64,000 nt of DNA from Roridomyces roridus (taxonomy: Eukaryota > Basidiomycota > Agaricomycetes > Agaricales > Mycenaceae): contig JARKIF010000043.1 in assembly GCA_029378245.1 (NCBI GenBank), positions 310,001 to 374,000 of the forward strand. Direction: 5' to 3'. Positions within the stretch are counted from its first letter, which is position 1, and each line of letters begins with the position of its first letter. The notes below the pieces were generated by a model, which was not told the origin of the DNA, searched no databases, and saw nothing but the letters and a program-made list of their open reading frames with translations. Made by a program: the position numbers and the translations under genes. Positions 40,002 to 44,364 of the stretch are shown in pieces.

Positions 40002-41341
40002 TTAATCTTCCTCTTCAAGCCGCTTCACCGCGTCAAACGCACTGTTCATCCGGGCAAAATCAATAGCAGCCCAGTTTTTATCGCTCTTGATATGCTTGTC
40101 TGCACCAAGTCTGTATGTATTTATCTGCCAGTCAGAAAACAAGAAACAACGGAGTAGAATTGGAATCCGCAGGACCTAAGCAAGAGATCTATAGCTTGAA
40201 CATCGTTCTTCAGAGCGCTCAGATGAAGCGGCGTGAAACCGCCTTCCGGAGATCGATAATTGACGTCGATTTTACCGGGGCCGGTGAGGAGTTCGTGTTC
40301 GACAATGTGGAATTGTCGGCCGGCGAGCATGTCCATTAAGATTTGCTGCTTGGCGATTCGGATGGTGTCGAAGAGCTTCTCGACGTCGTCGGTCATGTCT
40401 GTGAGGCCCTGGAGTGGCGATTAGAGCTACGAGGTGTTCAGAGAACTGAAGACGAACCTCATGGCCGGCAGTTGTGGTCGCCAATACACTGTACTGTCCC
40501 TCGTTTAAAACTGTAAACGGAGATTAGACGGCGACAAGGTGAAAGTTGCATCCCTACTGTTTGATCGACATGACGGACAGCAAGGGCGCAGATTAAAAGG
40601 GGCGCGTATAAGAAATCTCATGTAACAAAAATAATGAAAGTCGTGGTGGCAGCTTGTCTTGAGACAGTGGATGGGTTGGTTTTGGTCTGCCGCGAATGTT
40701 GCGCATCCAAGAGGCAGCGGACATAGACCGCAAGAGGCAGTGAGGTGGGCCGGGACTACAACAGCAGGCTGTGCCACGGGAAGCGGGAGCCGTGGAACTG
40801 CTGCAGAGTCGCTGATTGGTGTACTCGGGTGTCGCAATGGAAGGGGAACGCATGGTTTCCGAGCATTTGAGGAGGAGGAGGAGTCGCTATCGTCGCCGTC
40901 TTCGGAAGGTCTCTGACAATTTGCCCAAATCAGCCTACATATACAGATGGCGCTTTCGAGCACGCACCTTCCTCTTGGGATTGGGAGGAGGTTTTCCACC
41001 AGTGGACTTCCGAGCGACCTGACTCTTCTTTCTACTTGAGCCAGGGCTGCTGCTTCGTGACTTGGGAACTGAATACACGAAATTCGGGAAAAAAAGACGA
41101 GCTTACTGGAGTGCTTTCGTCAGGCCGCCGAGGAGGCTTGCCACCGGTGGATTTACGCGCTACCTGACTTTGACGTCGATGTTTTTCCGTGGGCGGAGAG
41201 CGGGGAGGTGGAGGTGGTGGCACCGTCTGGAAAACCTCGTCCAAAAACTGGAGACCATGTCATTTTGACATTCGTGCATTCGGGCGAGACACGTACTGTC
41301 CGCGGGTCGATGACGGGTGCTTTGCTGCGATGTGGAGGCAT
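40002..41341 (-). CDS. RING-H2/ankyrin protein with two histone H3 tail-like motifs
   Basis: Seven minus-strand exons (41297-41341, 41107-41247, 40968-41060, 40558-40912, 40458-40510, 40176-40408, 40002-40110) join exactly to 342 aa. The N-terminal ~80 residues are basic and disordered and contain SQVARKSTGGKPP twice (codons at 41,137-41,160 and 40,992-41,015 for ARKSTGGK). ARKSTGGK is residues 7-14 of histone H3. A PKRKRPSEDGDDSD segment looks like a nuclear signal with CK2-type sites. A RING-H2 finger follows (CGLC...C-H-H-D-F-H-Y-F-C...CPSC; spacing C-x2-C, C-x-H-x2-H-x2-C, C-x2-C), so a ubiquitin E3 role is likely. The C-terminal part has an ankyrin repeat (GGFTPLHLSALKNDVQAIDLLL, LGADKH) and ends DAVKRLEEED. 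It is divergent from the carboxylase gene with 146 bp between the starts. Confidence 0.8.
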
Positions 41342-41487: not shown

Positions 41488-44364
41488 ATGATTCCAACGA
41501 AACGGGCAGCCCTCTCCGCCCCCAGGCTCCCCGCAGTGGTGGCCACCAGCCTACGCGCGCAGCATACGATACCAACGCGTCAAGTGCCCGTGTCAGGCGG
41601 ACTCGGGTCCATTGCTCCTGTCGGTCGGAACCCCGGCCTTGCTTCCCCAGTTTTCCATAATCCACGTCGGTTCTATGCTTCAGAGACCAGTGAGTCGACT
41701 TTGCAATACGTGGCCGCATATCAACGGTCATAGAATCCGGTCGTTTTCCCCACTTTGACAAGATCCTCGTCGCCAACAGGTATGTCCAATTGACAGTCCG
41801 AATGACAAGTCACTGACTTGCCATTCCAGAGGGGAGATTGCATGTCGCGTCATCCGCACCGCCCGGAAGCTTGGTATCAAGACCGTCGCCGTGTACAGTG
41901 AGGTAGACAAAGACTCGATGCATGTCAAAATGGTGCGACTACTGCTTATTCAATTCACGGCGGCCAACTCACTGTCCTAAAGGCAGACGAGGCTTACTGT
42001 ATTGGACCAGCACCGTCTGCGGAAAGCTATGTAGGTGCCTCGACTTGCAGACTCTTCAGCTCATCGAGGCTTGCCAGCTTCGTATGGACAAGATCATTGA
42101 CGTATGTCGTCGGAGCGGGGCGCAGGTGAGCTATCCTTCTCGGATTCTGGCTTTCTCTTCAACTTCATCTCAGGCCGTTCACCCGGGGTATTCTCAACCA
42201 ACCCATCGGTCTTCGTTGCAAAACTGACGCGACCCAGATACGGATTCCTGAGTGAAAATGCTGTATTTTCCGAGACGTTGGCAAAGGAGGGAATCACGTT
42301 CATCGGTCCGCCTGCCCAAGCCATTGTCAGCATGGGGTCTAAAAGCGAGTCGAAGAATATCATGTCCGGTACGCGTCTGTTCAGTTCCACGGAACTCCAC
42401 TAAAGTATTCGCAGCTGCGGGCGTTCCCTGCGTTCCGGGCTATCATGGTGACACTCAAACGCCCGAGTTTCTGTTTCAAGAATCGTCGCGGATTGGATTC
42501 CCCGTCTTAATCAAGGCTGTCCATGGTGGAGGCGGCAAGGGCATGCGTATTGTCACCGAACCCACGCTCGAGGCGTTCCAAGAAGCACTGTCTTCTGCCC
42601 AACGGGAGTCCCTCAAGGCGTTCGGCAACGATACTGTGTTGGTTGAAAAGTACATTGAACGCCCGCGGCACGTCGAGGTACAAGTATTTGCGGATACGTT
42701 GGGAAATGTTGTGAGTTTGTGGGAGCGGGATTGTTCGGTCCAGCGTCGGAACCAGAAGATTATCGAGGAGGTGTGTCTGCAGTGCTGCTTTTGTTTTGGT
42801 TCGATATATTTTATAGGCTCCTGCGCCGGGGTTATCTCCCGAGCTGCGTGCGGATTTGAGCGCCAAGGCTATTGCTGCTGCGAAAGCTGTGGACTATGTC
42901 GGCGCGGGGACGGTTGAATTCATCTTCGACAATGATACGGAGAAGTTTTATTTCATGGAGATGTGGGTGCTCTCAATTTCTCAACAGAAATGAGACGTTG
43001 AAGATAATGCAGGAATACACGGTTGCAGGTTGAGCATCCTGTTACAGAGATGGTAACTGGATTAGATCTTGTCGAGTGGCAGCTCGAGGTCGCCGCAGGC
43101 AACCCGCTGCCTCTGGCCCAATCAGCCATTCCCCTCGTCGGCCACGCCTTTGAAGCGCGTATCTACGCCGAGAACCCGCGCAACAACTTTTTACCCGACT
43201 CGGGACCGCTCCTCCACCTATCCACTCCAACTCCCACCCACACATTCGCGACACCGTTCCCTACAGTTGCAACCTCGGCGGGTTCTGAACTGACACCCTC
43301 CCTCTCGCACGAAGGGATCACTATTACGCCGGCTGTGAGACTCGAACAAGGGTTCGGCCAGGGCTCGCAGATCGGTGTGTTTTATGACCCGATGATAGCC
43401 AAGCTCGTCGTTCATGGACGGGATCGCACCGAGGCGTTGCGGTTGTTACGCAAAGCACTGGACGAGTACCACGTCGTTGGGGTGTCGACTAATGTCGAGT
43501 TTCTGAGAATGTTGGCGGGGAATGAGGCGTTTATCAAGGAGGAGGTCGAGACTGGTTTCATTCCGGTGGGTTGAATTCGTTCTTTTCTCTCCAAATGATT
43601 GAACCTGAATTCTTCGGCAGAAACACTTTGACGAATTGTTCCCGCCGCTTGCAGCTCCTGCTCCGGAACTTTTGGTTCAAGCGGCATTGTTTGTGGCACT
43701 CCGGGACCAACCAATCGCCTCGCCGACGTTGCAGTCACCCTGGACGTCCCTAAGCTCCCGTAGATTTGCGGGAGATGTCTACGAGCGCACTATCCTCTTG
43801 CAAGAAGAAGGCGCTTCGCACGATTCGACGCCTACGTCTATCCACATCAAGTCCATCGACACTGCCCATTTTGCAATCACAGTCAACACTGCCGACGGCG
43901 AGACGCACGTCTTTCCCTCCGTCGCTGCACAGCTCATCTCACCGACGACGCTCTCATCTACGATCAACGACGAATACGCGCGGGTGACGATCGTGGGTCA
44001 GGCCCCATCCGTGGCCAGTGCGAATACCGCAGAGCGGATTCACGTCTTTAGAGGTGGTGCCAAGACGACGTTGGTCGTTCCCTCGCCTCGGTGGCTCGTT
44101 GCGTTGAGCGAGGATATTATGAACGCAGCGGCAGCCAAAGGGGCTTTGAGGGCGCCAATGCCGAGTCTCGTGGTGGAGGTCAAGGTCAAGGTTGGGGACC
44201 GCGTGGAGAAGGGGCAGACTGTTGTTGTATTGGAGAGTATGAAGACGGAGACGGTGTTGAGGGCTGAGGGGGCTGGGGTTGTCAAGGCTGTTGGGTGTCG
44301 GAATGGGGAGATGGTGGAGGAGGGGAGGGAGTTGGTTGAGATTGAGATTGAGGAAAGTGTGTAA
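41488..44364 (+). CDS. MCCA: Methylcrotonoyl-CoA carboxylase subunit alpha, mitochondrial
   Basis: A biotin-dependent carboxylase of the leucine breakdown pathway. It opens with an Arg/Ser-rich mitochondrial presequence ([14 protein letters not shown]). Then come [49 protein letters not shown], the glycine-rich [17 protein letters not shown] loop, [42 protein letters not shown], and a C-terminal biotinyl domain with ESMKTE holding the biotin lysine. Exons all join in frame, for example donor at 42,955 ('AT|gtggg') to acceptor before AATACACGG. Stop at 44,364. The arrangement (carboxylase and biotinyl domain, without carboxyltransferase) excludes pyruvate carboxylase; propionyl-CoA carboxylase alpha is a less likely alternative in fungi. 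Confidence 0.85.

Follow-up and report, generated by a model that had tools for sequence, protein, structure and literature searches.

A RING/ankyrin gene carrying two H3 tail-like copies

The window analysed here is a 64,000-nucleotide stretch of the genome of Roridomyces roridus, a member of the Mycenaceae. It contains, on the minus strand from 41341 to 40002, a gene of seven exons whose spliced translation of 342 amino acids is identical to the deposited NCBI/UniRef protein P0001 ('hypothetical protein FB45DRAFT_945880 [Roridomyces roridus]'), in line with the exon count and length proposed in a preliminary description of this DNA. When exons 1–4 are held fixed, 52 splice models are open for exons 5–7, and the one adopted here was picked because it is identical to P0001. 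The six introns measure 49, 46, 55, 47, 49 and 65 bp, and the features of the gene are arranged as follows:

41297..41341, minus strand: exon 1, residues 1–15, start codon at 41341; translation matches P0001
41107..41247, minus strand: exon 2, predicted disordered; carries H3 tail-like copy 1
41131..41169, minus strand: H3 tail-like copy 1, SQVARKSTGGKPP, residues 42–54; ARKSTGGK at 41137–41160, residues 45–52
40968..41060, minus strand: exon 3, predicted disordered; carries H3 tail-like copy 2
40986..41024, minus strand: H3 tail-like copy 2, SQVARKSTGGKPP, residues 75–87; ARKSTGGK at 40992–41015, residues 78–85
40883..40979, minus strand: nuclear-signal-like stretch PKRKRPSEDGDDSD, residues 90–103, interrupted by the intron 40967–40913
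40558..40912, minus strand: exon 4, RING and a serine/proline-rich stretch
40562..40732, minus strand: RING-H2 finger, first to last ligand cysteine, residues 154–210
40458..40510, minus strand: exon 5
40176..40408, minus strand: exon 6, linker helix, after which the ankyrin part begins
40017..40291, minus strand: ankyrin repeats, residues 269–338, interrupted by the intron 40175–40111
40002..40110, minus strand: exon 7, last section of the ankyrin part, with the stop codon

The model uses an AAG acceptor for exon 3. An alternative CAG acceptor 8 bases upstream would yield a product of 147 amino acids with copy 1 only and without the RING; given this loss of copy 2 and of the RING, and the match between model and deposited protein, we rejected a splice error. 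The window belongs to contig C368 of a 90.8-Mb assembly that holds a second allele on contig C169. Over 2,301 aligned bases the two alleles show four differences; exon 4 accounts for three (V144A, A168T and D169E), and the H3-like copies are unaffected. At an E value of 0.01, an assembly-wide search for paralogues returned nothing besides these two alleles and generic ankyrin matches. On the plus strand, an ATG at 41488 opens a neighbouring gene, a later frame of which matches the Pfam family CPSase_L_D2 (biotin-carboxylase-like); the two genes lie head to head, 146 bp apart, a spacing at which they may have a promoter region in common.

The two SQVARKSTGGKPP copies sit on separate exons. In both of them ARKSTGGK is identical to residues 7–14 of histone H3 as read off the H3 genes of the same assembly (MARTKQTARKSTGGKAPRK), which confirms the match recorded in the preliminary description, and copy 1 additionally agrees with H3 at Q5, P16 and R17. 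Comparison of the copies revealed differences at seven of the 13 codons of SQVARKSTGGKPP, every one of them silent, the figure within ARKSTGGK being the six of eight codons noted before. Among 200,000 random draws of seven substitutions in copy 1, made uniformly and with neither codon bias nor transition bias in the model, 4 were silent throughout, and a recent duplication is not favoured, given the seven silent differences.

To place the motif in its genomic context, the whole assembly was scanned at the DNA level for ARK[S/T]TGG, which gave 24 sites (4 for the reversed control pattern). By translation, 12 of these are histone H3 genes, one is a cenH3-like gene and three (L010, L022 and L029) look like chance or simple repeats, while four lie in the gene described here and four in one other gene, in each case two copies on two alleles. 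One locus (L032, position 1501, minus strand; contig C442:1579149) is, by eye, likely to be a centromeric variant of H3 in which ARKSTGGRPAR survives within an otherwise divergent tail.

The region that carries the copies is disordered in the AlphaFold model, with pLDDT block means of 35–46 up to residue 150. It also includes the nuclear-signal-like PKRKRPSEDGDDSD, present in the sequence as previously reported; basic clusters of this kind can act as nuclear signals. Further along, the model shows a RING-like beta-beta-alpha part and ankyrin helices, with pLDDT block means reaching 96.

Conservation of the H3-like copies and of the RING

Two protein searches defined a RING/ankyrin family of eight members, comprising R. 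roridus, Mycena maculata, M. crocata, M. filopes, M. rosella, M. vulgaris and the records P0017 and P0018. The remaining matches of both searches were ankyrin proteins, joined in the second by some H3-domain proteins. Since the search words in both cases included the motif, family members without it may be missed, and the collection is biased towards carriers. Scoring as a good copy any stretch with at least 7 of 15 identities to H3 residues 4–18, we found 18 good copies in total (2, 2, 3, 1, 3, 3, 3 and 1 per member), so that every one of the eight proteins has at least one. Excluded by this threshold were four degenerate copies (M. maculata copy 3, M. filopes copy 1, SARKSRG of M. vulgaris and SFRKSPL of P0017), a choice that biases the tally of 18 towards conserved copies.

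The real copies have 8 to 13 of 15 residues identical to H3 4–18, and the best match in shuffled proteins was at most 6 of 15 in 15,934 of 16,000 shuffles; together with the assembly-wide scan, this led us to reject a chance match to H3. The sequence around lysine 9 thus recurs, beyond chance, in a non-histone protein, and it is kept in all eight family members, as retrieved by searches that favour carriers.

Conservation across the 18 copies is markedly uneven. R8, K9, T11 and G12 are present in every copy, and position 10 is always serine or threonine (S in 16, T in two). A7 is kept in 17, Q5 and P16 in 16 each, and G13 in 15, with R in the other three. R17 occurs in 10 copies and K in four, which brings a basic residue (R or K) to this position in 14 of 18. 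T6 is found in seven copies, the others having V, C or S; K14 in six; K18 likewise in six, with R in three; and K4 in one. M. crocata copy 1 is identical to H3 at 13 of the 14 residues from Q5 to K18.

Measured over aligned residues against P0001 as the reference, the seven other members are 79% identical in copy 1 (58/73, with 11 gapped positions, all of them in P0004 and P0018) and 80% in copy 2 (67/84). The corresponding values are 33% for the rest of the N-terminus (217/659), 48% for the RING (178/374) and 54% for the ankyrin part (246/455), and the longest invariant run of the whole protein is ARKSTG of copy 2 (A78–G83). The view that selection holds the protein sequence of the motif, put forward earlier from the silent differences, is supported by these differences and by the presence of the motif in all eight members. 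In a separate observation, the first ~25 residues of the Mycena homologues contain a short kept stretch like ERIRLEDILLPVASTS, weaker in R. roridus, which is possibly another linear motif.

Both the RING and the ankyrin repeats named in the preliminary description are borne out, with differing kinds of evidence. The eight zinc ligands of a RING-H2 finger (Cx2C...CxHx2Hx2C...Cx2C) are present as a whole pattern in seven of the eight members; in P0005 (M. rosella) the first five are kept and a gap lies over the last three. The missing segment of the RING in the deposited P0005 model may reflect an annotation gap. Pfam RING-type matches were weak and all below the cut-off, both in P0001 (E 0.33) and in six homologues (P0004, E 0.084), and P0005 gave no RING match when scanned at E 0.01.

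With the full model as the query, Foldseek returned ankyrin proteins, and because this search saw just the ankyrin part, the RING was searched through the short homologue P0018. In that case RINGs came out on top (TRAF5/6, the APC/C chain APC11 and RNF165, at probabilities of 0.97–0.99), and among the 50 matches listed nearly all are RING or U-box domains or complexes containing one (0.99–0.41); no RING match had an E value below 0.001, the best being 0.018. The RING fold is thus found on the predicted model, with Pfam matches below the cut-off. The ankyrin model, for its part, scores above the Pfam cut-off in P0001–P0005, P0016 and P0017 but not in P0018.

The preliminary description had asked whether the motif is always paired with both domains. 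For the RING this holds, as RING sequence accompanies the H3-like copies in all eight members (the P0005 model being without the last three ligands), whereas ankyrin repeats do so in seven, the exception being P0018, a short record of 184 amino acids.

A second fungal family with H3-tail sequences

The same assembly encodes a further protein, FB45DRAFT_940676 (479 aa; contigs C94 and C246, loci L016 and L023), which is unrelated to the RING/ankyrin gene and carries at least four H3-tail-like stretches, KSRPKQTARKTTGG, KSRPKQTARKTTKG, KARTKQTARKTTGGGAPK and APRTKQSAKRGG. A protein search with it, whose words also included the motif, returned 51 proteins, of which 50 contain KQ[TSIM][AT][RK] and 41 the exact RTKQTAR of H3 residues 2–8; shuffling gave none in 25,500. 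Most of the extra RTKQTAR-type sites in the assembly (23 sites, against 9 for the control pattern) look like chance or simple repeats and were set aside.

Members of this second family come from 18 named species of Mycenaceae, Favolaschia being included among these, and, beyond them, from Cyclocybe, Rhizoctonia, Fusarium, Trichoderma, Escovopsis, Peltigera and others, so that the family spans both Basidiomycota and Ascomycota (Dikarya). Set against these 18 species, the RING/ankyrin family, with six named ones, looks patchy. The two families share the use of H3-tail sequence, often several times per protein, and differ in the part that is kept: R8–G12 in the RING/ankyrin family, R2–R8 in the other. 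Among 130 copies of the second family, R2 is found in 108 and T3 in 95 (the pattern itself fixes K4 and Q5 and limits positions 6–8), and at position 9 K occurs 72 times and R 47 times. Because R is so frequent there, the second family seems to copy H3 residues 2–8 and not K9. Scans of P0053, P0078, P0088 and P0101 gave no match to any Pfam family, and these members are accordingly without RING or ankyrin repeats.

Readings of the H3-like copies and relation to known mimics

Judged by the sequence comparisons above, the repeated near-copies of the H3 tail around lysine 9 are probably an imitation of histone H3, and the preliminary interpretation, H3 mimicry under selection, is right in kind and partly supported; the observation beneath it is correct and has proved stronger than was apparent at first reading. 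For the enzymes that might act on such a mimic, DIM-5 of Neurospora offers a guide. According to the abstract of the study, R8–G12 alone are required in vitro (PMC3248561), and passages of its text describe K4L, A7M, K14R, A15M and P16A as having no significant effect and G13M a slight one. The paper is inconsistent here, in that A7M counts as an activity loss in its Table 2 and G13 joins the residues that its discussion calls required (PMC3248561). Phosphorylation of H3S10 is stated in the same source to inhibit DIM-5, and K14 substitutions to abolish DNA methylation in vivo (PMC3248561).

Set beside these DIM-5 results, the mimic keeps the complete R8–G12 footprint (S or T at position 10) and lets K4 and K14 go: K14, needed in vivo for DNA methylation, is present in 6 of 18 copies, and G13, listed as required in the discussion, is R in three. 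The earlier suggestion of a substrate for H3K9 or K14 enzymes can thus be divided, its K9 half agreeing with the invariant residues and its K14 half finding no support. Two further papers add that SUV39H enzymes recognise RKST (PMC8303541) and that HP1 binds the methylated ARKS of H1K26 and the methylated ARKT of G9a K165, while a methylated ARKS peptide of ADNP failed to bind it (PMC3022755).

In the R. roridus assembly, we found one Pre-SET match with a SET-like sequence downstream by eye, and this gene is a candidate writer of mimic methylation. The HP1 chromodomain grips an H3 stretch that includes Q5 and A7. No HP1 was identified through Chromo_shadow, which gave no match in the assembly and likewise none in the control genomes of the same search. 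Chromodomain matches number at least 150, many of them in long open frames; of eight places that were opened, five (L063, L065, L069, L070 and L074) are by eye Ty3/gypsy integrase ends, L073 is by eye an ABC-type protein, and L075 and L076 are ambiguous.

We propose that the mimic lysines are substrates of a KMT1-type enzyme and, once methylated, ligands of chromodomains, which would thereby be brought together with a putative ubiquitin ligase, and we give this reading, the simplest one, about an even chance. The RING-H2/ankyrin protein, probably nuclear, would display its H3 lysine-9 mimics on the disordered N-terminus, where a KMT1/Clr4-type H3K9 methyltransferase would methylate them, a step proposed because the R8-K9-S/T10-T11-G12 footprint is kept. 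An HP1-like protein, or the reader module of the methyltransferase itself, could then bind the methylated copies through its chromodomain, the presence of several copies lending avidity, and the RING would recruit an E2 for ubiquitylation of the bound heterochromatin factor or of chromatin nearby. The ankyrin part may offer an additional binding surface. All three steps are inferred.

The same residues can be read in other ways. The mimics might act unmethylated, filling the catalytic groove of an H3K9 methyltransferase (or demethylase) so as to inhibit or recruit the enzyme, which the RING would then mark for ubiquitylation; the kept residues fit the DIM-5 footprint, which cannot separate a substrate from an inhibitor, but a pure decoy would not strictly need the acceptor lysine that is retained in all 18 copies, and we regard this as unlikely. 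A phosphorylation switch, in which an Aurora- or PKA-type kinase would modify S10/T11 of the mimic and 14-3-3 proteins would read the mark or readers be released, draws on the S or T at position 10 and the R8 of every copy. As H3S10ph inhibits DIM-5 (PMC3248561), the site could superimpose a switch on methylation. On its own, however, the familiar consensus of a basophilic kinase site leaves the invariant K9 and G12 unexplained, and the switch strikes us as distinctly unlikely.

Recognition of the array by a karyopherin or a histone chaperone, for nuclear import or H3 hand-over, would agree with P16 in 16 of 18 copies, with R or K at position 17 in 14, and with the RTKQTAR kept by the unrelated second family. 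The lysines of the H3 tail are considered important for import, however, and K14 and K18 are each retained in just six copies, which leaves this explanation with a slim chance. Slimmer still is that of a lure for genome defence, in which methylated mimics would attract the integrase chromodomains of chromovirus-type retrotransposons and the RING would mark the integrase for ubiquitylation. This bolder reading rests on the abundance of chromodomain matches and on the Ty3/gypsy integrase ends at five of the eight opened places, and it would fit a protein that looks patchy and changes fast apart from its frozen mimic. Finally, a fragment of an H3 gene might have entered a disordered linker and persist there without function, and the near-identity across Q5–K18 would fit a capture; but the copies differ silently only, they are better conserved than the RING and ankyrin parts, and six of the eight members have two or three good ones (the other two have one), so an inert relic is very improbable indeed. 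Methylation and reading of the mimic, joined to the RING, remains the explanation we prefer.

Most of the histone mimics known are short motifs of the ARK[S/T] type, from chromatin proteins of animals and from pathogens. The H3K9-type examples, G9a K165, LIG1, WIZ and others, likewise consist of an ARK[S/T]-like peptide in a non-histone protein (PMC10611923, PMC3022755), and a four-residue core motif has been described for them (PMC10611923). In contrast, the match in the R. roridus family covers Q5–K18 in one to three good copies, shares its protein with a RING and ankyrin repeats, and occurs in mushrooms.

A parallel in domain content is G9a/GLP (EHMT1/2), which also combines a histone mimic and ankyrin repeats in one protein, and the EHMT1 ankyrin domain (6by9) is among the PDB sequence matches of the R. 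roridus protein. The latter differs in having a RING, and a Pfam scan of it found no SET domain. Methyl-lysine reading of the GLP type uses a tryptophan cage in the ankyrin repeats; no ankyrin tryptophan column is common to all eight rows of the family alignment (position 332 is W in four of the eight), and a GLP-like reader is, without a shared tryptophan, not supported.

With RING-H2 ligases, represented by the folds of TRAF6, APC11 and RNF165, the protein has the ligand pattern and the predicted fold in common. We know of no ligase that combines this RING/ankyrin domain order with H3 mimics, and none appeared in our searches of the open-licence literature. A search of the same literature with few terms, with most subscription papers outside its range, found no description of the RING/ankyrin protein or of either fungal family. 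While histone mimicry as such is known, a mimic of the H3K9 type that is long, repeated and retained throughout a family of mushroom RING/ankyrin proteins is, as far as these searches reach, new.

In this fungal RING/ankyrin protein, a repeated H3 tail is one of the parts that change least. The 18 copies in the family amount to a natural experiment on H3 residues, in which R8 to G12 stay and K14 does not, and they make it testable whether a dedicated protein of the ubiquitin-ligase type steers the writers and readers of H3K9. Together with the RTKQTAR family found across Dikarya, they suggest that fungi have turned repeatedly to H3-tail imitation, a device that may have been overlooked.
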